32,706 bases of DNA from Patescibacteria group bacterium. GTDB lineage: Bacteria > Patescibacteriota > Patescibacteriia > JAGVFQ01. Each line of letters starts with the position of its first letter. Position 1 is the first letter of the stretch. Positions 2,566 to 14,569 of the stretch are shown one piece after another. The notes below the pieces were generated by a model. The model was not told the origin of the DNA and made no database searches. It was given only the letters and a program-made list of their open reading frames with translations. The stretch is from NCBI GenBank assembly GCA_020057505.1, contig JAGVFQ010000023.1, positions 1 to 32,706 on the forward strand. Reading direction: 5' to 3'. Made by a program: the position numbers and the translations under genes.

Positions 2566-2723
2566 TTTATCCTCCGTGTGGTTAAATTTGAGCTATTTTA
2601 GCTCGTTTTTAGTCTATTTGCCTTAAAAAGAACTTCATACTATCATAGCACTTCACCATAAAGTTGTCAAGTATCAATTTTCCTTATTTTAAATTACAAT
2701 AAAATTATACTAATATTTATAAA

Positions 2724-4838
2724 ATGATTTTATTTTTGTCTAAATTAAAAAAGATTATCCAGAACCATCCCTTAATAATTCTTGGTCTTGCAATTTTAAT
2801 TTATATTGTTTTTTTTGTCTCACTCACTGTCTGGAAATATAACAACTTCGGCTATAATGGCATTGATCTTGGAATTTACAATCAAGTCTTTTGGAATACG
2901 GCGCACGGACACTTTTTTGAATCATCAATTCAGGCTCAATCATATCTCGGCGATCATTTTGAGTTATTTATTTTATTATTATTGCCCTTTTATTTAATTT
3001 TCCAGCATCCGATCACTCTCTTAGTTTTACAAACCATCTTTCTCGCGCTCGGCGCAATACCAATTTTTTTAATCAGCAAAGAAGTTTTAAAATCCCCCCT
3101 ACCCCCCTTTAACAAGGGGGCAGAGTCTAACATCCCCCTTTCGATAAAAGAGGGCTGGGCGGATTCTTTACCGCTCCTCTTGTCTCTCATCTATCTTCTA
3201 AACCCTTTCATCCAAAACATCAATCTCTTTGAATTTCACATTCTGCCGTTTGCCATTCCCCTTCTCCTCTTCGCCTTTTATTTTTACCAAAAGAAAAAAG
3301 CTCTGCCTTTTTATATTTTTATAATTCTTTCTCTCTTGGTCCGCGAAGACGTGGCTTTAGTTGTTTTTATGTTCGGAATTTTGGCTTTAATCAATTCTCG
3401 GCAAGAAAGAAAAGACACTACCAGATACCAAATACCAGATACCAGCTACTTCTTAAGATGGATCCTCCCGCCAATAATTCTATCCATCGCTTGGTTTATT
3501 ATCGCCACAAAAATCAGCGGCGCGCTCAACCCCAGCGGCGATTATAAATTTCTGGTTTATTATTCTTGGCTCGGCCAAACCTTTCCCCAAATAATTGCTA
3601 ACTTCTTTCTGCACCCCCTGATTGTGCTGAGAAAAATTTTAACAATTTATAATTTAGGTTTTATTATAGGTATATTAATACCCTTTGGCTTTTTGTCTCT
3701 CTTGAAGCCAAGATATTTGATTCTGCTCCTTCCACCCCTGCTCCAAACTGTCCTCGGCATGGGCGGCGGCGAGGAAATAATCCTCACGCATTATTGCTCG
3801 CTTTTTTTGCCGGCGCTCTTTATCGCCCTAATTTTTGCCATCAAAGATGTAATGAATGAAAAAATAATTGCTAAATGGCAAGCAGGATTATTAAAAGCTC
3901 TCTCTATTGAAGAAAAACGAACTTTCGCGATTATTCTTCTCATTATTGCCGCTATTTATTCTTTTTTTACTCTCGGTCCAGTCGCAGGTTCAACCAGAAT
4001 TATCGCCAACTATGATCAAAAAAATACAACTATAAGAAATTACTTTTTAGAGCAGATACCGGCCGATGCGCCAACGCTCACTTCGCTTGATTTTCTGCCT
4101 TATCTTTCCTCGCGAGAAAGCATCTATGCGCTCCATTATATCTATCTCGGGCAAAAACAATTTGGCAATGGCGACTATACTCTCCCGGATGATACGGAAT
4201 ATTTGTTAATCAATTTTGACGATATTATCAATTATGATTTTGAATTCCAAAAACAATCAGGCTACAGCAAGTATCTCTCCTCCGCTCCGGACCGCCTGAG
4301 AAATATTTTGACTGAGAAAAACTTTGGCTTAGTTGATATCATCGACTCCATCGCTTTGCTGAAAAAAAATTATGTTCCTGAAAAAAATTTCTTTGAGCTG
4401 AATACTTCTGCCTACCCCATTGCCAACAAGCAAGAGATTAATCTTGATAATAAAATAAAATTCCTCGGCTATGCCAAGGAATTAGTCAAAAAACGAATAA
4501 ATAATCTTGATTTAACTCTTTACAATCTCAATCTTTCCTGGCAGGCAATGGGTCAAATGACAGAAAATTACCAGCTTAAATTAACAGCTTTGGATAAAAA
4601 TAATAAACCAATTTACAAAAAATATTACCCGCTGGCCTATGGCATTTATCCGACGAGCGAGTGGAAAATCAATGAAATTATCCAAACGAATTATTGGTTT
4701 TTGCTGCCGAATAATGCTCTGAGTATTGAATTCAATTTAGTAAAGATTTATGGCGCCAGTGAATTAAATGATCTGAGGTCAGGAATTATTGTAATTGATA
4801 GAGAAGAGCAGCTAGGCGAGACGATTAAAATTGAATAA
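2724..4838 (+). CDS. DUF2079-family multi-pass membrane protein
   Basis: 704-aa multi-TM protein with N-terminal YNNFGYNGIDLGIYNQVFWNTAHGHFFESS...YLGDHFE motif typical of DUF2079. Confidence 0.8.
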   Translation: MILFLSKLKKIIQNHPLIILGLAILIYIVFFVSLTVWKYNNFGYNGIDLGIYNQVFWNTAHGHFFESSIQAQSYLGDHFELFILLLLPFYLIFQHPITLLVLQTIFLALGAIPIFLISKEVLKSPLPPFNKGAESNIPLSIKEGWADSLPLLLSLIYLLNPFIQNINLFEFHILPFAIPLLLFAFYFYQKKKALPFYIFIILSLLVREDVALVVFMFGILALINSRQERKDTTRYQIPDTSYFLRWILPPIILSIAWFIIATKISGALNPSGDYKFLVYYSWLGQTFPQIIANFFLHPLIVLRKILTIYNLGFIIGILIPFGFLSLLKPRYLILLLPPLLQTVLGMGGGEEIILTHYCSLFLPALFIALIFAIKDVMNEKIIAKWQAGLLKALSIEEKRTFAIILLIIAAIYSFFTLGPVAGSTRIIANYDQKNTTIRNYFLEQIPADAPTLTSLDFLPYLSSRESIYALHYIYLGQKQFGNGDYTLPDDTEYLLINFDDIINYDFEFQKQSGYSKYLSSAPDRLRNILTEKNFGLVDIIDSIALLKKNYVPEKNFFELNTSAYPIANKQEINLDNKIKFLGYAKELVKKRINNLDLTLYNLNLSWQAMGQMTENYQLKLTALDKNNKPIYKKYYPLAYGIYPTSEWKINEIIQTNYWFLLPNNALSIEFNLVKIYGASELNDLRSGIIVIDREEQLGETIKIE
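3091..3165. repeat. C-rich/G-rich palindromic element inserted in frame in the DUF2079 CDS
   Basis: AATCCCCCCTACCCCCCTTT ... AAAAGAGGGCTGGGCGGATT imperfect inverted arms (15/20 by hand) with internal CCCCCTTTAACAAGGGGG hairpin. Length is 75 bp, or 25 codons. Confidence 0.75.
3421..3448. repeat. 7-nt tandem repeat (4 units) within DUF2079 CDS
   Basis: CCAGATA|CCAAATA|CCAGATA|CCAGCTA read directly. Confidence 0.75.
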
Positions 4839-4875
4839 CAATAATGCAGGCACAAAAATCTTTTACCTCTAAATT

Positions 4876-6519
4876 TTATAACACCTTATAAATCTCAACC
4901 TCATTATTGCTATAAACTTTTTCTAGAAAATTTGCTTTTTGCGGCTCAAAGCTGCTTTTAGATCTCTCGTCTTTGCCCCAATATAAATATTTAATCTTAT
5001 TCGCCTTCAAAAACCGTGCTCTAGCTTCATCACTCTTGGTATTTAAAAACCAATCTATATTTTGAATTTTTGTATAAAAATAGGCTGTCTCGACGCTATG
5101 GCCAAGATAAACTGTCTTGCCAGTTTGGCCCGGAATCAAATTCCCTGTTCGCCAATAAGAAAAAATTGGCTGACTTTCTCCCACATTGGACTTGATCCAA
5201 GCAAAAGCTTCTTTTTCGGCAGCAGGAATATAAAGGAGATTATTTTTTGTTTTAAATAATCCAATGTCATCGGCCATCACAAAGAGATTGGACGTGAAAA
5301 AAAACACAATGAATAGAAAGCCAAGCAAAAATATATTTCTATTTATTACTGAAAATAATTTTAATTTATCCAACTTTGATTTTACAAAATACAATCCCGA
5401 TATCGCGAGCAAAATCAAAGGTATTTGCCAGCCCTCAATCATCCGACGCTCGAAATTAACCGGAGAATAAATCAGAAAAAATTGAAAAACTGCCCAGATA
5501 ATAAGAAAAAGCCAGGGGCTGTTTTTTATTTCCTTATTTTTAGATAATGAGTAATAGCCAAAAATCGCCAAAGGGATGATCAGTCCATAACCGATAATAA
5601 CAAGAAATAAGGCCGGCGTGAGGCACAAATTCTCTCTGCCCGATTCAATGGTAAGCCAATCAAATTTTAAAAGATATAAATAATAAATAATAGATGGCAC
5701 TGACAAAAGGCCAAAAATTACATAATGCTTAATAAATTGCCATCTGATCTTTTTTTGGATTAAACATAAAGCTGCAATATACAAGCCCAAAGCGCCAAAA
5801 ATTACAAAAATATTGAAAGGATGAAATTGGAAAAGCGCCAACCCAGCGAGGCCGGCAGCAATGCTATATTTAATTTTGTTATTTTCAAAGGCTAAAAGCA
5901 TTAAGAGAAATATAAGAACAACTAAAGTCACAGAAGCAATAAAATGCGGCGATTGGTAGAGAGTAAGAAAAGTATTTGATTCAGGCACCCAAAGATCAGG
6001 TGGCCAGTGGCTATACCCTGCTTTTTCAAAATAAAATTTTTCCAATAGCTGCGAAAAAATTCCGCCCCAGCCAGAAGCGAAGATTAAAAACAAATAACCG
6101 ATTTTTCTCTTGGCTTTGTCAAGAAAAAAATAACTCAAAAATAGATAAGCCACAAAGCCAAAGACTGGAATCAATAATATCCGCGCCAAATGAAAGGTCA
6201 AAATATCGGGCAAATTAAAAATTTGGCCGAATAAACCTATACCCAGCCAAAAAATATTCAATCGCCCGGCACCTTGAAATTCTGATGTATATAAATCTTT
6301 AAATAAAAAATGGCCTTGCTTGACCTGCTCCAGATAAGAATAATAAACGGAAATATCGCCGGATGACAGCGAATGAAAGCCCAAAAAGTAATCATTGCCT
6401 CGAACGAGCCAGCCATAGAGATACGGCAAAGAAGTCAAAAGAATAGCTATAATTGTTATCGCGCCAACAAAATGCCATTCTCGCTTACTTATGCTTTGAT
6501 ATAATTCCTTTAGAGTCAT
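4876..6519 (-). CDS. Multi-pass membrane protein, probable GT-C-type glycosyltransferase
   Basis: 547 aa, about 12 hydrophobic segments, acidic first extracytoplasmic loop (SSGDISVYYSYLEQVKQG), soluble C-terminal tail. Confidence 0.6.
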   Translation of the reverse strand: MTLKELYQSISKREWHFVGAITIIAILLTSLPYLYGWLVRGNDYFLGFHSLSSGDISVYYSYLEQVKQGHFLFKDLYTSEFQGAGRLNIFWLGIGLFGQIFNLPDILTFHLARILLIPVFGFVAYLFLSYFFLDKAKRKIGYLFLIFASGWGGIFSQLLEKFYFEKAGYSHWPPDLWVPESNTFLTLYQSPHFIASVTLVVLIFLLMLLAFENNKIKYSIAAGLAGLALFQFHPFNIFVIFGALGLYIAALCLIQKKIRWQFIKHYVIFGLLSVPSIIYYLYLLKFDWLTIESGRENLCLTPALFLVIIGYGLIIPLAIFGYYSLSKNKEIKNSPWLFLIIWAVFQFFLIYSPVNFERRMIEGWQIPLILLAISGLYFVKSKLDKLKLFSVINRNIFLLGFLFIVFFFTSNLFVMADDIGLFKTKNNLLYIPAAEKEAFAWIKSNVGESQPIFSYWRTGNLIPGQTGKTVYLGHSVETAYFYTKIQNIDWFLNTKSDEARARFLKANKIKYLYWGKDERSKSSFEPQKANFLEKVYSNNEVEIYKVL

Positions 6520-6520
6520 G

Positions 6521-7222
6521 CTATTTTTTGAATCTCAAAGTTAAGACTTTAATGAAGGCTTCAAAGAAAATTTTAAAATTAAACTTTGATTTGCCTAATT
6601 TTCTTTCGGTAAAAATAATAGGTATTTCTTTGATTTTAAACCCATTTTTATAAGCCCAATAAGTTGTTTCAATTTGAAAAACATAGCCCTCAGAATCTAA
6701 TTTTTCCAAATTAATACTTTCAATTACTTTTCTTTTATAACACTTGAATCCGCCAGTTAAATCTTGGAAAGAAAGATTTAAAATAAGCCTTGCGTAAAAA
6801 TTGCCCAAATAACTGATCAATCTCCTTCCTAAATTCCAATTTTTAATTCCTCCACCTTCAATATAGCGCGAGCCCAGGACCAAATCGTAATTTTCAACTT
6901 CTTCCAAAAATTGCGGCAAATATTTTGGATCATGAGAAAAATCAGCATCCATTTCAAAAATATAATCAGCCCCTAAGACTAGAGCTCTTTTGAAACCATC
7001 GATATAAGCCGATCCAAGACCCATTTTTTTAATTCGGTGGATAATTTCAAGCCGAGTGGTTTCCTCTATGCTTTCCACCAACCCACCAGTTCCATCTGGC
7101 GAATTATCATCAACAATGATGATATTAAGATCAGAAATATTAAATGAAAAAATTTGTTTAATTAATTCTTTAATATTGCTTCTTTCATTGTAAGTTGGGA
7201 TAATAATTGATATTTTAGTCAC
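6521..7222 (-). CDS. Polyprenol-monophosphomannose synthase-like GT2 glycosyltransferase
   Basis: ISIIIPTYNERSNI...IIIVDDNSPDGTG...EMDADFSHDPKYLP...LVLGSRYIEGGGIKNW is the DPM1-like signature. Confidence 0.85.
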   Translation of the reverse strand: MTKISIIIPTYNERSNIKELIKQIFSFNISDLNIIIVDDNSPDGTGGLVESIEETTRLEIIHRIKKMGLGSAYIDGFKRALVLGADYIFEMDADFSHDPKYLPQFLEEVENYDLVLGSRYIEGGGIKNWNLGRRLISYLGNFYARLILNLSFQDLTGGFKCYKRKVIESINLEKLDSEGYVFQIETTYWAYKNGFKIKEIPIIFTERKLGKSKFNFKIFFEAFIKVLTLRFKK

Positions 7223-7252
7223 AAAATTGGCTATACTATAAAATTATTTAAT

Positions 7253-8725
7253 TTATTTTTTGGTATAAAGATAAAAATAAGCATTATAATCGTCATATTC
7301 TATTTTTTCTTCATTATAGTTTTCTTTCAGCCAATCAGCTAAAAATTTCTGGCCTACTTTTTCCGGGCCAGCTTCGGCCGGCGCATATAAGATATATTTC
7401 ACTTGTTTTTGGGCTAGGTCATTTTTTATCTCCTCTTTTGCTTGCTCAGACAAATATTCTCCATATATTATATTATATCTAGTAGGATTTACTTTATTGG
7501 CAAAGCTATAATAATAAACCGAATATGGATAGATAAAAATTTCTTTATCTGGAATATTATTCAAAACTTTTAATACTGATTCTCTAAGCGACCGAGCTGC
7601 TGATTGATAAAAGTATACTTGGCCAATATTTGTATCTAGCGGCTGCCAAAGTTTATAATTTATATATTGGTTAACTGGGAAAGGATAATAAACATAGAGC
7701 GGACAAATCAAAAAAACTGCTAAAAATATTTTATAATTTTTGCCAGCTTCGATATTTAATTTGCTAATCGCATAAAATAATAAAGACAAAGTAAAGCAAG
7801 GATAAATATAAGCTAAATGATTCTGATCAAGCCTATATAGTGAAGATAAGATCATGATTAAACTAAAAGAAAAATAAAACACTATCTGCTCCGAAAACAA
7901 TTTTTTATAGTACAGGATAAAAAATAGAATAAGATAACTTACAAAAACGGCGAAAAGCAATACATTATTTAAGAGAGAAATATAGCCTATTTGAGGATAA
8001 TAATAAGCATTGCTAATTATTAAATCTTCCCAAATCGCTCTCGGTCCGGCAATCAGCAAAAACGGCAACATCAGTAAGGTAAATGACCCAAAAAAGCTCA
8101 AAGAAAAAATCAGACATTTTTTTATTGATATTATCCAAGTATATTTTTTTTGATTGTACCATAGCAAAAATATAGCTATAGCTGCGGCAGCAATTATAGG
8201 CTGGACATGCAGAAAGAAAGCTCCCAGCCCCAAGCTCAGACCGCTTAATACTAGATGATGATCTTTTTCTTGTTTGAGATAATGATTAATTTGCCAGCCA
8301 GCAACTAAAATAAACAACAAGGCCAGCCAATGGAAGGATATGATCAGCTGATTTGGATAAAGCAAAACGATGAATATAATAACCTGTAGAGCTGACCACA
8401 AGCGACTAAGAATTACTCGGCTAGTCAAATAAATAAAAACGCAAATTAGCCAGGCAATCAAAATAATAAGTAAACGGACTATCAAGTAATATTGGCCAAA
8501 AACAGACCAAGCTACTAATAATAAATAGTAGATCCCGGGCGTTATCAAGCTGAAAAAATCGCGATAGATTATCTGCCCAGCCATGATTCTTTGCGTATCA
8601 GCCAGTATCAGCCCTTCATCCCCCATATCTCCAGATCGAAATAAAGATATATATATTAGAAACAATAAAACAGCCAGAAAAAAAACGATAATATACCTAT
8701 TATTTTTTAATTTCGAGGTGAGCAT
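7253..8725 (-). CDS. Multi-pass membrane protein, probable ArnT/GT39-like GT-C glycosyltransferase
   Basis: 490 aa, many TM helices, N-terminal GDMGDEGLILADTQRIMAGQIIYRDFFSLITPG motif typical of the PMT/ArnT-like superfamily. Confidence 0.65.
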   Translation of the reverse strand: MLTSKLKNNRYIIVFFLAVLLFLIYISLFRSGDMGDEGLILADTQRIMAGQIIYRDFFSLITPGIYYLLLVAWSVFGQYYLIVRLLIILIAWLICVFIYLTSRVILSRLWSALQVIIFIVLLYPNQLIISFHWLALLFILVAGWQINHYLKQEKDHHLVLSGLSLGLGAFFLHVQPIIAAAAIAIFLLWYNQKKYTWIISIKKCLIFSLSFFGSFTLLMLPFLLIAGPRAIWEDLIISNAYYYPQIGYISLLNNVLLFAVFVSYLILFFILYYKKLFSEQIVFYFSFSLIMILSSLYRLDQNHLAYIYPCFTLSLLFYAISKLNIEAGKNYKIFLAVFLICPLYVYYPFPVNQYINYKLWQPLDTNIGQVYFYQSAARSLRESVLKVLNNIPDKEIFIYPYSVYYYSFANKVNPTRYNIIYGEYLSEQAKEEIKNDLAQKQVKYILYAPAEAGPEKVGQKFLADWLKENYNEEKIEYDDYNAYFYLYTKK

Positions 8726-9312
8726 ACAAAGACAATATGTTTATATATTCTCCGCGGAGATAGAAAGGTATACACTTTTTCGATTTTTAAGGATTGGCTA
8801 ATCAATTTGGTAAGAACATTTTCTTGTCTAATAAATTTCCCCTGATCCATACTATAGAGAAATCTGGCTAGGAAATTTTTATCATTAGGTGATAAATCAG
8901 CAATAATAATTTTATTTTTAGTTAGTTGGCCCATTCGATCGAGCAACTGCTTGATCTCATCGTCTGGCAAATGATGTAAAAAATTTATAACTATGCTTTG
9001 ATCGAAACTCTTAGCACCAAATTTGATTTCTTTAAAATCTTGACAAATATAATTATTAGCAGGATATTTTTTATTATTATATTGGATATAATTTTTATTA
9101 ATGTCAACACCGGTATAATAACCCTTAATATAAGGAGCAACCATAGATACTCCACAAGCAACATCTAATATATTTTCGTCTGGTTTAATGTCAAATAACT
9201 CCTTAATGAGACTATTGTAATTACCAACCCAAAACTTTTGATTAGCTAAATATACATAAGGGGACTGGAATAATAGACTGACAATATTATTTTTTTTCCA
9301 ATAAGCAAACAT
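8707..9312 (-). CDS. Class I SAM-dependent methyltransferase
   Basis: NILDVACGVSMVAPYIKGYYTGVDIN (motif I) and FDQSIVINFLHHLPDD. Confidence 0.75.
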   Translation of the reverse strand: MFAYWKKNNIVSLLFQSPYVYLANQKFWVGNYNSLIKELFDIKPDENILDVACGVSMVAPYIKGYYTGVDINKNYIQYNNKKYPANNYICQDFKEIKFGAKSFDQSIVINFLHHLPDDEIKQLLDRMGQLTKNKIIIADLSPNDKNFLARFLYSMDQGKFIRQENVLTKLISQSLKIEKVYTFLSPRRIYKHIVFVCSPRN

Positions 9313-9958
9313 AACGCAAAGGCATTAAAAAATTAGGTATAGGTACGATTTTTTTTATAAATAAATATTTTTTAGTCAATTGTTTTAATAAATTCAAATC
9401 AAAATTATGCAAATGCCAATCTTGTATAATAGGAATATCTTTAAAGAAGATATTAAATAATTTTATTTTTATCAACAATTTTTTTATCCTATTAATATGT
9501 TTCTCGTTAGGAATGGTGATAATTATTTTAGCTCCCTTTTTAGCCACTCGTTCAATTTCTTTAATTAATTGTTGAGGATTTAAGGTATGTTCTATTACTT
9601 CGCTGCACAGGACAAAATCAAAAGTATTATCCTGATAAGGTATATTCAAGGCGTCGCCAACTATTATTTCTTTAATATTATTTTTTCTTTCTAGTTTATT
9701 TTTAGCCCGCTCAACAGCGGCCGTTGAAATATCCAACATATAAAGGCAACCGCTGTTAATTTGGTTTTCAATATAACCCTCCCCGCAGCCAATTGATAAA
9801 ATTTTGTCATCAAATTTGACAGATATTAATCTAAGGATAGTTTTGACTCTCAGACTCTCTGTCCATCTAACTATTAAATTGGGATGCAAATAAAGTCTTT
9901 CATTATTATATTTAATGAACATTTTTTCATTCCATTTTTCAAATTCTTTTTGATCCAT
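9287..9958 (-). CDS. Class I SAM-dependent methyltransferase
   Basis: KILSIGCGEGYIENQINSGCLYMLDIS and NTFDFVLCSEVIEHTLNPQQLIKEIERVAKKGAKIIITIPN. Confidence 0.85.
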   Translation of the reverse strand: MDQKEFEKWNEKMFIKYNNERLYLHPNLIVRWTESLRVKTILRLISVKFDDKILSIGCGEGYIENQINSGCLYMLDISTAAVERAKNKLERKNNIKEIIVGDALNIPYQDNTFDFVLCSEVIEHTLNPQQLIKEIERVAKKGAKIIITIPNEKHINRIKKLLIKIKLFNIFFKDIPIIQDWHLHNFDLNLLKQLTKKYLFIKKIVPIPNFLMPLRYVCLLEKK

Positions 9959-10673
9959 TTTTTTTAAAATTAATTAAATTATTAATAAATTGATAAATAG
10001 ATTTGATTAAATCTACTTTACTTTTGCGATTGATATTTCTAGTCTCCATCCAAGTAATCGGTATTTCTTTTATTTTATAACCCTTTCTTTCAGCGAGTAC
10101 TAAGAGCTCGGTATCGAAAAACCATTCCCTATCTTTAGTTTGGGGCACAATATTTTTAATAATAGCTTGATTTATGCCTTTAAAACCGCACTGCAAATCA
10201 GATAGATTAGTGGATAATATAATTCTAGCCATAAAAATATAGCCGCGAGAGACTACTTCCCTCAACAAACTGCGAGCAATCTTTGATTGAGGCAGAAATC
10301 TAGATCCGGTTACTAAATCGTATTTTCCCTCGGCTAAATATTTAATTAAATCCGGCAGTGCTGATAGCTCAGTAGCTAAATCCATATCCATATAAACATA
10401 GTAATCGCCGAGATTGTCAAGGAAGGCTCGCCTCAAAGCTTCGCCGCGGCCTTTTTGGGAAATAAAAAAATATTTTATCCTTTCCTGCTTAGCCAATTCT
10501 TGGCCGATTTGGGCAGTCTGATCTTGGCTGTTATTATCCGCAATGATTATTTGCCAATTATAAGAGGATAAATTATTGGCCAAAAATTCTTTAAGAATAG
10601 TAATGTTTTTTTCCAAAACTAATTCTTCGTTATAAACCGGCAGAATAATATTTATTAGAAAAGAATTGGTCAT
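9939..10673 (-). CDS. GT2 family glycosyltransferase (dolichyl-phosphate glucose/mannose synthase-like)
   Basis: NIILPVYNEELVLEKNI...IIADNNSQDQTAQIG...YVYMDMDLATELSALPDLI...LVTGSRFLPQSK. Confidence 0.82.
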   Translation of the reverse strand: MTNSFLINIILPVYNEELVLEKNITILKEFLANNLSSYNWQIIIADNNSQDQTAQIGQELAKQERIKYFFISQKGRGEALRRAFLDNLGDYYVYMDMDLATELSALPDLIKYLAEGKYDLVTGSRFLPQSKIARSLLREVVSRGYIFMARIILSTNLSDLQCGFKGINQAIIKNIVPQTKDREWFFDTELLVLAERKGYKIKEIPITWMETRNINRKSKVDLIKSIYQFINNLINFKKNGSKRI

Positions 10674-10696
10674 ATTTTTGCTTTAGAAAAATTTGT

Positions 10697-12373
10697 CTAC
10701 AACACTTGATAAATCTTCACTTCATCATCGGAATATAATATTTTAAATCCGAAGCTCTTGGCAAAGCTATCTTCCACTTTGGTCCGTTCCGTGGCCCAGA
10801 GGACATAAGACGCTTTAAAATCACTTTTAACCTTTTGATTTAAATTTTCTTTGTCCTTGCCCACTACAATATTATACCACTCCCAATATAATTCCTTATT
10901 ATAATCGTACATAAAGGTCGGATCAAGGCCAACGATATAAAAATTGTGAGTATTATAGTAAAACAAAAGCGGAAATTCGTCCCAGTTGTTGTGAAAAATA
11001 ATCGAATCTTTGGGCGTATTGCTTGCGAGCCACTGGCCGGCTTTTTCCATTTTGCCCCAAGCAAAACCGCCGGTGAGATCTTTTCTCGCGGAAATAATAT
11101 CTCGCTCCGAAATAAAAACTATAGCTATTACCATGTAGAGAACCAAGACAAACGACAAAAACTTTTTTATTCGCGATAATTTTTTAAACCACGACCAATA
11201 TTCGTAAAAATCGACATAATGGAAAAAATTATTCAGAGCAAAAGCGGAAAAGATCACGACAAAGGGAACAAAATATTCCACATTGCGCCGCGATTTCAAA
11301 GTAAAAATAAAAAAGAAAAGGCTGATAAAAAATAGCGTCCAAGAATAAATATTTTGTTTTTTATAGCCGACAATGAACATGGTCAAGGCCAAAAGAAGCA
11401 AGATAAAAATTAGGTTCGCGCCGGAGACAAAATCAAATAATTTGTAAGGATACCATTCAGCGCCTACGCTGATTGTATTTTGAGCATTAATCAAGCCGAT
11501 TTTGATTGTTTGCTCCCAATAAAAAAATAAATTCTTCGGAAAATAAGGGTTAACAATCAAACTGGCAAGCAAACCGCTAATATTGGCAACTAATAATTTT
11601 AAATTTATTCCAGAAAAAAATCGCGCTAAAAATAAAACAATAAATTCTCTAAAACCAATAGCGGCGGGTATTCTTTCTTCCGATTTAATCAAAATAATTT
11701 CTTGCCCATCGATAATATTATTTTCAATAACTAAATCCAAACTTCTTTGGTTCAATTCATGCCAGAGATCATTGATGGTGTTAACGACCAGAAAAATAAC
11801 TGTGAAAGCCAGCATGAGCGGCCAGCCGCCATAAAGCCAGACATAAAAAATTGATATAAAAAATAATGGCCAAATCTTCCGCCGGAAAAGAAAGGACAAG
11901 GCGATAATCAAAAAAATACTCGACCAAACCGGCGCCTTGGCAAGATTAATCCTAAAAATAAAAGGATTAATTAAGAGAAGCGAAAGGCAATAAAAAATAC
12001 TGCCTTTGATTTTGAAACTTTTTAAGAACCAATGAACTACTGTAATTAGCAAAGCAGCAAACAATACAGAGGCCAATTTAGTGCCAAACAAGGGATCGCC
12101 AAAAATGACAAAAGGGATCAGGAAGACATGATAAAGCAAATGGTGATCGATATACAAATTTTTAAGAGTAGTGAACTGAAGCCAGGGAAAATTCTGGATA
12201 ATGCCTTGATCTTTCATTAATAGCGCCATCTTGGCATGATAAAAAGAATCGGGATCGGCGAAGGTCTGGGAATTCTGCAGCCAGAAAAAAAAGAAAAAAG
12301 CAATCAAAAAAAGCAAAATATAATTTAATTTGTATTTAAAGAAAAAATTATTCATGTGGTCTTTAAAAATCAA
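10697..12373 (-). CDS. Multi-pass membrane protein, STT3/oligosaccharyltransferase-like GT-C candidate
   Basis: First-loop FADPDSFYHAKMALLMKDQG resembles the STT3/AglB acidic motif, and the soluble C-terminus carries HNNWDEFPLLFYYN. The start may be the internal Met (MNNFFFKYKLN). Confidence 0.55.
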   Translation of the reverse strand: MIFKDHMNNFFFKYKLNYILLFLIAFFFFFWLQNSQTFADPDSFYHAKMALLMKDQGIIQNFPWLQFTTLKNLYIDHHLLYHVFLIPFVIFGDPLFGTKLASVLFAALLITVVHWFLKSFKIKGSIFYCLSLLLINPFIFRINLAKAPVWSSIFLIIALSFLFRRKIWPLFFISIFYVWLYGGWPLMLAFTVIFLVVNTINDLWHELNQRSLDLVIENNIIDGQEIILIKSEERIPAAIGFREFIVLFLARFFSGINLKLLVANISGLLASLIVNPYFPKNLFFYWEQTIKIGLINAQNTISVGAEWYPYKLFDFVSGANLIFILLLLALTMFIVGYKKQNIYSWTLFFISLFFFIFTLKSRRNVEYFVPFVVIFSAFALNNFFHYVDFYEYWSWFKKLSRIKKFLSFVLVLYMVIAIVFISERDIISARKDLTGGFAWGKMEKAGQWLASNTPKDSIIFHNNWDEFPLLFYYNTHNFYIVGLDPTFMYDYNKELYWEWYNIVVGKDKENLNQKVKSDFKASYVLWATERTKVEDSFAKSFGFKILYSDDEVKIYQVL

Positions 12374-12375
12374 AT

Positions 12376-12487
12376 ATCCCCCTTAATCCCCCCCCTTCAA
12401 CAAAGCTCAGGACAAGTTTGCTAAGGGGGAATTCCGGATTAACGCACTTTTTTTAGTTCCCTCTTAGTAAAGGGGGCGAGGGGGGAT
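12376..12487. repeat. Long C-rich/G-rich palindromic composite repeat
   Basis: ATCCCCCTTAATCCCCCCCTT ... AAAGGGGGCGAGGGGGGAT outer arms with internal hairpins. It shares TTGCTAAGGGGGAATTC with 13770..13786. Confidence 0.75.
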
Positions 12488-12557
12488 GTTCACTACTTAT
12501 TCTGACTAAATATTAGTATTTTTTATTTCAGCCAAGCATGGATGTTAAAATAAAAAA

Positions 12558-13619
12558 CTACAGATATTTTTGATTTTCTTCCTCTTCTTTCATTTTGGCG
12601 ATTAATTTTTTGACGTTTTGCGATTGATCAATAGGGCAAATAAAAAGAACGTCATCGGTGTCTACCACGACCAAATCTTTGACTCCCACAGTCGCTATTA
12701 GTCGGCTCGAACCGAAAATCAAAGAATTGTTGGAATCAACCCCGATATGCTTGCCCTTAACAACATTGGAATCTTTTTCTTTTTGCAGAGCATTGCGAAG
12801 ATGGAACCAGCTGCCTACGTCGCTCCAGCCGATATCCGCGGGAATCACCACAATATTTTTTTCCTTTTCCATTACGCCATAGTCTATGGAAATATCTTTC
12901 ATTTTAGCATATTCTTCTCTGGTAATTTTTTCTTCTTCCGCCGAGCCAATAGCCAGCATTATTTTCTCCAAAGCCTTATAATTGCCGGGCAAATATTTTT
13001 TGATCCGTTCCAAAATAGTCGAGACGCGCCAAATAAAAATACCGGTATTCCAGAGATATTCCCAGGAAGTGAGAAATTGTTTCGCGGTTTCAAAATCCGG
13101 CTTTTCAATGAACTTTTCAACCTGGAAAAAATTATTTCCCAAATTTTTACCCATTTTGATATAACCGTAGCCTGTCTCGGGATAAGACGGATTAGCGCCA
13201 ATCGTACCCAGCCAATCTTTTTTGAATTTCTTTTCGGCAAGCTTCAAGATTTCAATTAACTTGGGAGAATTTTTAATAAAATGATCCGCTGGCACTACTA
13301 CCATGAGCTCATTCATGAACCCCCGCTTTTTCAAATAAACAGCGCCAAGACCGATCGCTGCGGCAGTATTGCAGCTGGCAGGCTCAATAATAATATTTTT
13401 GCGTGGCAATTGAGGCAATTGCTTTTGCACTTCTTCGCGATAGCCTTGATTGGTAACAATATACAAATCCCTCAAGGCAAAATACGGCCTCAGACGGTTG
13501 AAAGCCTCTTGGAGCAGCGACTTTTTGGATAAAAATTTTTGAAATTGCTTCGGGCTTTCTTCGCGGCTGATCGGCCAAAGCCTGGTGCCCTTACCGCCGG
13601 CGAGAATAAGTATTTTCAT
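12558..13619 (-). CDS. manC: Mannose-1-phosphate guanylyltransferase (GDP-mannose pyrophosphorylase)
   Basis: MKILILAGGKGTRLWPISREESPKQF pyrophosphorylase motif, EKPDF, and DIGWSDVGSW. Confidence 0.92.
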   Translation of the reverse strand: MKILILAGGKGTRLWPISREESPKQFQKFLSKKSLLQEAFNRLRPYFALRDLYIVTNQGYREEVQKQLPQLPRKNIIIEPASCNTAAAIGLGAVYLKKRGFMNELMVVVPADHFIKNSPKLIEILKLAEKKFKKDWLGTIGANPSYPETGYGYIKMGKNLGNNFFQVEKFIEKPDFETAKQFLTSWEYLWNTGIFIWRVSTILERIKKYLPGNYKALEKIMLAIGSAEEEKITREEYAKMKDISIDYGVMEKEKNIVVIPADIGWSDVGSWFHLRNALQKEKDSNVVKGKHIGVDSNNSLIFGSSRLIATVGVKDLVVVDTDDVLFICPIDQSQNVKKLIAKMKEEEENQKYL

Positions 13620-13711
13620 AATTCTACGAATTTACAAATTAATTACCAATTCACCAATTTGCAGGTGCTAAATTTAGTTAAAATATATCACAATTAACAC
13701 TAAAAAACAAG

Positions 13712-13740
13712 TTGAATTTTAATCGATTATTTGCTATAAT
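13712..13740 (+). promoter_or_regulatory. Sigma-70-type promoter upstream of yebC
   Basis: TTGAAT - 17 nt - TATAAT. Confidence 0.65.
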
Positions 13741-13753
13741 TTAATGGAAAAAA

Positions 13754-13786
13754 CAGCCCCCCAGCCCCCTTGCTAAGGGGGAATTC
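13754..13786. repeat. Partial copy of the C-rich/G-rich palindromic element
   Basis: CAGCCCCCCAGCCCCCTTGCTAAGGGGGAATTC. A 17-bp block is identical to 12418..12434. Confidence 0.65.
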
Positions 13787-13800
13787 AAACAATCAGAAAC

Positions 13801-13837
13801 CTAATTTCCTAAAAAGCTATAAGCTAAAACCTAACTT
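13801..13837. repeat. Degenerate 7-8-nt tandem repeat directly upstream of yebC start
   Basis: CTAATTTC|CTAAAAAG|CTATAAG|CTAAAAC|CTAACTT. Confidence 0.55.
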
Positions 13838-14569
13838 ATGTCCGGACACTCAAAGTGGGCCACAACTCACAGGCAAAAAGAAGTTGCCGACGCCAAGCGC
13901 GGAGCTATTTTTACTAAACTCGCTAATGCCATTACAATTGCCGCGAAACAGGGTGGTGGAGATCTCGAAACCAATTTCAAATTAAGAATGGCAATCGACA
14001 AAGCGCGAGATTCCAATATGCCGAAAGACAATATTGAGCGCGCCGTAAAAAAAGGCACGGGTGAACTTGGTGGCGAACAAATCGAGGAAATCGCCTATGA
14101 AGCCTTTGGTCCGGCCGGTACGGCCTTTATCATTGAAACCGTCACGAGTAATCGCAACCGAACTGTTTCCAACTTAAAACATATATTTAATAAATATGGC
14201 GGCAATTTGGGCGGAGCGAATAGCGTCGCCTGGATGTTTGAAAGATCGGGAGTAATCAGAATTATCAATGAAGAATTAAAAGATAAAAATATCGATGAGC
14301 TGGAATTAAAATTAATCGACCTTAACGCCAAGGATGTAAAAAAAGAAACCGAAGGGTTAGTTGTCTATACCGACCCGTTAGATTTACAAAAAATAAAAAA
14401 TGAAATTGAAAAAAATAATATCAATATCGCTAGTGCGGATATTGAATACGTACCAAAAGATAAAATAGAAATAAAAGATAACGTAATAAAAGAAAATTTA
14501 GAAAAAATTCTTGACGAACTCGAATCTGATGAAGATGCCAATAATTATTACTTCAACTTTATAGACTAA
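13838..14569 (+). CDS. yebC: YebC/PmpR family transcriptional/translational regulator
   Basis: MSGHSKWATTHRQKEVADAKRGAIFTKLANAITIAAKQGG...NMPKDNIERAVKKG is canonical. Confidence 0.96.
   Translation: MSGHSKWATTHRQKEVADAKRGAIFTKLANAITIAAKQGGGDLETNFKLRMAIDKARDSNMPKDNIERAVKKGTGELGGEQIEEIAYEAFGPAGTAFIIETVTSNRNRTVSNLKHIFNKYGGNLGGANSVAWMFERSGVIRIINEELKDKNIDELELKLIDLNAKDVKKETEGLVVYTDPLDLQKIKNEIEKNNINIASADIEYVPKDKIEIKDNVIKENLEKILDELESDEDANNYYFNFID

Follow-up and report, generated by a model that had tools for sequence, protein, structure and literature searches.

Palindromic repeats in frame in a DUF2079 membrane-protein gene and in other conserved genes, and their linkage to DUF559 nuclease genes

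The window, i.e., the whole stretch of 32,706 nt that was analysed, is contig C24 of a genome of 1.01 Mb in 66 contigs (C, G and L numbers below designate contigs, genomes and loci). At 2724..4838 (+ strand), it harbors the gene of a 704-aa DUF2079 membrane protein (PF09852, E=1.3e-60), within which a palindromic doublet of 75 bp with outward-facing feet (AATCC...GGATT) is found at 3091..3165 (+). The left unit (3091..3122, +), of which there are copies on C20 and C19, consists of the foot AATCCCCCC, the spacer TA, the hairpin CCCCCCTTTAACAAGGGGG and the tail CA, while the right unit (3132..3165, - strand) is inverted and degenerate (ATCCCCCTTTCGATAAAAGAGGGCTGGGCGGATT), as seen in the sequence and in a double-hairpin copy on C51. 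Both units combine a foot (AATCCCCC) with a C/G hairpin, the two being separated by a short spacer that varies. The element as a whole (AATCCCCCCTACCCCCCTTTAACAAGGGGGCAGAGTCTAACATCCCCCTTTCGATAAAAGAGGGCTGGGCGGATT) is stop-free and translated as SPLPPFNKGAESNIPLSIKEGWADS, i.e., some 25 residues in frame. Its coordinates, length, AATCC/GGATT arms, CCCCCTTTAACAAGGGGG hairpin, open frame and peptide had all been given in a first-pass annotation and are confirmed from the sequence; an antisense ORF of 66 aa (2990..3190, - strand), regarded there as a by-product, indeed merely reads the opposite strand of the repeat (APLLKGGRGD). Related intergenic copies, also claimed there, do exist, namely a doublet of the same kind with two hairpins and outward feet (12376..12486) and a single unit (GCCCCCCAGCCCCCTTGCTAAGGGGG, 13755..13781), although blastn aligns them with the element over short stretches only (83% over 29 nt and 89% over 19 nt). 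No known RNA family was found within positions 2600-14000. Elsewhere in the window, positions 288-2061 are occupied by four tandem paralogous genes of small membrane proteins (132-165 aa; DNA identity 67-75% over 229 and 89 nt).

Regarding DUF2079 homologues, a search matched 26 of 57 genomes of the same class (own genome included), and the nearest relative in a peptide scan is one Komeilibacteria locus with 37% identity. Several alignments to homologues are interrupted exactly at residues 122-124 and 147-151, and in a MAFFT alignment every homologue covering the site (about 25) has 0-7 residues at the insert loop. The 25 added residues of the first-pass annotation are in frame and without a stop, but correspond to a net gain of about 19-24 because of the 0-7 residues that homologues have at this loop; nor do the homologues share an ancestral loop of the same length. 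A chance palindrome in an ancestral DUF2079 loop would agree with a reading frame that is open throughout the insert, but this reading is refuted by the 0-7 residues of all covering homologues and by an exact 32-nt copy (100%) elsewhere in the genome, and its probability is negligible. Shuffled versions of the 75-mer, which are just as rich in G+C, fold about as well as the 75-mer itself when modelled as single-stranded DNA (z = -0.74 for the 75-mer), so that the claim of an inserted repeat is carried by the multi-copy evidence and not by folding energy. In the window sequence itself, no target-site duplication is evident at 3090/3166. With the family multi-copy in the genome and the insert missing from homologues, it is nearly certain that the 75-bp element is a mobile palindrome inserted in frame in the DUF2079 gene, which supports the earlier idea of a mobile repeat turned protein-coding; neither of the two refuting conditions set in the first-pass annotation, a loop of equal length in close homologues and a lack of further copies in the genome, holds.

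The repeat is far more frequent than chance would allow. The pattern AATCCCCC..CCCCCTT has 21 occurrences in the genome (0 for the reversed-pattern control), and for the hairpin CCCCCTT..AAGGGGG there are 69 on either strand (69/69, vs. 0/0 for the reversed-pattern control), which amounts to about 70 hairpin places because nearly all matches are palindromic, some of the entries overlapping. C20:5371-5402 is identical (100%) to the first 32 nt of the window element, which are matched at 97% by C5:1234 and at 94% by C4:10410. Two further matches, at C19:1971-2003 (88%, left unit) and C19:2364-2407 (81%, positions 1-48 of the element), form a pair flanking a DUF559 gene. The copy on C51 (double hairpin at 1750-1799; match at 1755-1805, 80% over 52 nt) spans both hairpins and has the same CCCCCTTTCGATAAAGGGGG hairpin. 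An inverted, REPIN-like architecture of two units is present in the window doublet, in the C51 copy and in the copies of another genome, G025.

Copies were catalogued from stretches around matches, and 65 hairpins were examined. Of the 65, 22 are in frame inside 14 ORFs, an all-in-frame result that owes something to case selection because frame-breaking copies would have looked intergenic. One hairpin each is found in the genes of DUF2079, UvrB, PheT, a 733-aa membrane protein, two glycosyltransferases, PrmC and RecR, two each in UvrA, a reverse transcriptase, CCA/poly(A) polymerase (where one lies at the extreme N-terminus, with an uncertain start) and PriA, and three each in UvrC and a HypF_C carbamoyltransferase; Pfam matches were obtained for 13 of the 14 host ORFs, the 733-aa protein having none. 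Alignments with PDB entries place extra residues at the repeats in UvrB (446-479), UvrA (141-201 and 399-438), RecR (+8), PheT (+19) and CCA-transferase (+10), and likewise in PriA, PrmC and UvrC. The window copy is not exceptional within its own genome, a point missing from the first-pass annotation, whose analogy with Rickettsia palindromes is apt and reaches further than proposed, about one third of the examined hairpins being in frame in conserved genes. In UvrA (L074:3100-5940) and where the HypF_C ORF begins (L091:2754-3995), a second, unrelated in-frame repeat family with peptides like RGATRGSDVAIS / CHCEEPTAGDEAIS can also be seen. Another observation concerns contig C56 (L071), where a sister palindrome (CCACCCCTACCCCTCCTTTGCGGAGGAGGGGATG, peptide TPPLPLLCGGGDEIYM) joins two Nudix-like domains in one ORF, with a RAYT-like Y1 gene some 430 nt away.

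In-frame palindromes are also found in other genomes, among repeats linked to DUF559 genes (see below): in LepA, UDP-glucose dehydrogenase, KsgA and TruB (G251), in RecR, MnmA, FolD and GltX (G066) and in TsaD (G028), the five genes of G066 and G028 being named by eye from sequence. In RecR, two different palindrome families are inserted at one loop in two unrelated families of bacteria (L085:2355-2975 and L221:6864-7592), which suggests that conserved proteins have insertion-tolerant hot spots. Co-option of the inserted peptides for a function, e.g., as a common docking motif, could be read from this repeated use of one RecR loop and from the P-(F/L)-x-K-G motif encoded by 19 of the 22 intragenic copies. 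However, the motif occurs in very different proteins, the shared frame is partly due to the palindrome itself and to stops in other frames, and the stop-free frames of a unit do not exceed those of random genomic DNA (3.6 vs. 3.5 of 6). Such a function is accordingly rated as very improbable, and the inserted peptide is presumed to be neutral.

DUF559 was picked for testing because DUF559 proteins often end in repeat-like peptides. The sole DUF559 gene of the genome (C19:2037-2354) is enclosed by a pair of inverted units from the window family (hairpins at 1973-1990 and 2375-2392), so the same hairpins as in the window bracket a DUF559 nuclease gene, which the first-pass annotation had also missed. 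The feet of these flanking units face inward, whereas those of the window doublet and of the Elp3 element described next face outward. In two other genomes of the class, G249 and G270, a DUF559 ORF lies in frame within the radical-SAM enzyme Elp3. The G249 insert (AAATCCCCC..CCCCCTTTGACGAGGGGG..[DUF559]..CCCCCTCGTCAAAGGGGG..GGGGGATTT) has the architecture and the ends (AATCCC...GGGATT) of the window doublet, with the gene in the middle, and Elp3 is without DUF559 in G243, from the same genus, and in other genera of the family. In G139 (L253), an unrelated palindrome (TGTCATCTCGA..TCGAGATGAC) is found at the loop of Elp3 where G249 and G270 have the DUF559 element.

The Pfam match to DUF559 (PF04480) is well above the curated cut-off (97.4 bits vs. 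20.6), and E63, D65, G66, H69, D78 and R81 are invariant in the aligned DUF559 proteins. A profile of twelve of them matches two solved structures, the endonuclease-like 3hrl (2e-37) and 3r3p (E=2.9e-5, 'mobile intron protein'), the latter being I-Bth0305I, a homing endonuclease that belongs to the EDxHD family. DUF559 thereby displays both hallmarks of the EDxHD/Vsr-like fold, i.e., conserved acidic/His active-site residues and a profile match to a solved member, and its matches to 3hrl and 3r3p suggest an enzyme of mobile type that cuts DNA. I-Bth0305I itself has, in this EDxHD family, a long DNA-binding region (PMC3943268).

Bracketing on both sides is also seen in G251 (hairpin at C2:72031, DUF559 at 72172-72486, hairpin at 72566) and G025 (C16), and a hairpin occurs on at least one side of DUF559 in G037, G066, G184 and G270. 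Among the class's 30 best DUF559 loci, picked solely by DUF559 score with one per genome, 26 are accompanied, on one or both sides, by a C/G-rich hairpin at a distance of up to 200 nt. Hairpins are present in 35 of these 60 flanks (58%) vs. 14 of 227 background windows further out (6%; p=7e-18); since background windows include coding DNA, a fairer control is given by the flanks of other genes (6/38 for DUF2079, 4/26 for Y1). When flanks are compared with each other, the upstream one is more similar to the inverted downstream flank of the same DUF559 locus than to those of other loci (p=1e-4), the hairpin design being constant across lineages while its sequence differs. Over 286 genomes of the class, with related genomes counted as independent, hairpin presence is associated with DUF559 (OR 3.0, p=6e-4) and unrelated to Y1 (OR 1.03, p=1).

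In the sampled stretches, the repeat flanking DUF559 is multi-copy in its own genome in G000, G006, G066 and G028, and was not found elsewhere in G138, G146, G259 and G012. That of G000 has 19 matches in 61 kb (stretches chosen around copies) and none in seven other genomes. Copy number is highest in G025, which has DUF559 and no Y1 and whose copies are nearly all identical. This 1-Mb genome without a Y1 transposase carries about 100 near-identical 95-bp doublets (AACAACAAATCCCCC..GGGATTTGTTGTT; even-numbered loci L138-L166), probably a recent expansion. No DUF559 match was obtained in the high-copy genomes G029, G097 and G234 (and G208), for which reason DUF559 may be lost or unnecessary. Outside the class, nine plasmid-borne DUF559 genes were inspected in Cyanobacteria, Deinococcus, Azospirillum and Photobacterium; 8 of them have such hairpins on at least one side, a count that comes without a background estimate for these genomes. 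On a plasmid of Synechocystis sp. B12 (L239), DUF559 is located in or directly beside a BREX PglX-type methylase gene, and on one of Pseudanabaena galeata (L240), a CDS of 4.9 kb contains it; genes of this sort may be recurrent sites of insertion.

The insertion, the copy number, the in-frame copies in conserved genes, the physical linkage of DUF559 with hairpins and the DUF559 element with the same ends inside Elp3 are direct observations. They are best explained by a non-autonomous mobile palindrome (a REPIN/MITE-like doublet) having entered the DUF2079 gene, where it was tolerated since the frame is kept and the site is a loop that separates two hydrophobic segments. The insert belongs to a genome-wide population whose units, a foot and a C/G hairpin, also bracket the DUF559 gene. 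DUF559, as a Vsr-like/EDxHD-type endonuclease, would recognise the foot-hairpin unit and cut at or near it, and repair would then copy the element into new sites. The short doublets without a gene would be internally deleted or trans-acting derivatives, moving in trans and related to DUF559 as REPINs are to RAYTs, and those of their insertions that keep the frame in loops would survive. This overall explanation, a mobile doublet in DUF2079 spread by DUF559, is mildly favored. Regarding its central step, the case that DUF559 cuts and moves these palindromes as their mobility enzyme is about evenly balanced; DUF559 could alternatively be cargo or itself an insertion target. The wider proposal, that DUF559 proteins are the dedicated mobility enzymes of an undescribed class of mobile elements found well beyond Patescibacteria (inverted foot-hairpin units with or without a nuclease gene between them, capable of in-frame insertion into protein genes, and with short non-autonomous derivatives that spread through the genome), is put forward tentatively, as falling just short of such a balance.

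Two other assignments of the mobility have to be weighed against this. The doublet architecture resembles that of REPINs and the own genome has four Y1_Tnp genes, two of them RAYT-like in length, as would be expected if the palindromes were moved in the classic REPIN manner by a RAYT / Y1 HUH transposase, with DUF559 as an accidental neighbour or cargo. Yet none of the four Y1 genes adjoins a CCCCC-type unit (that on C32 has another repeat at its flanks, and those on C18 and C41 look like IS200-type elements); Y1 flanks carry hairpins at the control rate, there is no association at genome level, and the genome with the highest copy number does without Y1, so that a Y1-driven system is decidedly improbable. 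A homing-type endonuclease hitch-hiking in palindrome elements that are moved by another enzyme, or by recombination at hairpins, would account for the profile match to a homing endonuclease, for the insertions in Elp3, inside the 4.9-kb CDS and next to or within PglX, and for palindrome-rich genomes lacking DUF559. That the linkage recurs in unrelated families whose hairpin sequences differ from one another exceeds what hitch-hiking needs, and this possibility is considered unlikely. As a candidate partner, RAYT/Y1 was rejected after no linkage was found in the own genome, in ten high-copy genomes or among the 286 class members.

The palindromes of Rickettsia (RPEs) and the protein-coding palindromes of Wolbachia are short, multi-copy, tolerated and in frame in unrelated conserved genes (PMC2229807, PMC10969869), and the repeats described here are alike in being multi-copy palindromes in frame in unrelated conserved genes (22/65 hairpins, 14 genes). 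RPEs have been grouped with CGTC repeats, which have no dedicated transposase, and intragenic REPs are frequent in replication and repair genes (PMC3733652). Unlike RPEs, for which no dedicated enzyme is known, the present family is linked to DUF559; it also differs from them in sequence, in its shorter single units (about 8-11 aa) and in its apparently Patescibacteria-like host, and the CGTC tag (PMC3733652) is on neither strand of 3091-3165. REP/REPIN-RAYT systems share with it units of a foot and a hairpin, inverted doublets, a non-autonomous character and an enzyme gene bracketed by the same units, but the gene bracketed here is DUF559 and not a RAYT, there is no conserved GTAG, and what separates foot from hairpin is not constant (TA, AA, TG, CG, AG, TAA, TTAAT). 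Because the CGTC and GTAG tags are lacking, the element is filed neither as an RPE nor as a RAYT-REPIN; in its workings it resembles them. As with I-Bth0305I and other EDxHD homing endonucleases, whose catalytic domain (3r3p) the DUF559 profile matches, DUF559 occurs inside host genes; however, it consists of a single small domain that lacks the long DNA-binding region (PMC3943268), and it is bracketed by palindromes, not by an intron or intein. Like MITEs, the short element shares its ends with a longer, gene-bearing one, here the Elp3 inserts of G249/G270, which belong to other genomes of the class, whereas the units flanking DUF559 in the own genome face the opposite way to the window doublet, and neither a recognised DDE or HUH transposase nor a target-site duplication was seen.

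In-frame palindromes in Rickettsia protein genes have been known since 2000 and RAYT-REP pairs are likewise known, but a DUF559 partner was not found described: no report tying DUF559 to repeats was found in the openly accessible literature consulted. If causal, the DUF559 link would define a new class of mobile element, and the system might serve as a model for the movement of enzyme-less palindromes such as RPEs. With a candidate enzyme physically linked to the repeats, the question of their mobility becomes open to laboratory test. Several unrelated lineages together have dozens of in-frame insertions in UvrA, RecR, PriA, PheT, LepA, GltX and others. This is also a warning that short peptides derived from mobile repeats (P-P-L/F-x-K-G-G) are present in many protein sequences.

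At 152-250 of the window and at L070:1880-2000 (C32), there is another palindrome family, with GGAGTCCTGACTTTAGTCGGGA, adjoining the RAYT-like gene of C32, of which it could be the real REP family. The two related IS200-like Y1 genes of C18 and C41 (L068, L069) have ACCCCNTTAANGGGGTTT-type hairpins at their ends and are likely an ordinary insertion sequence.
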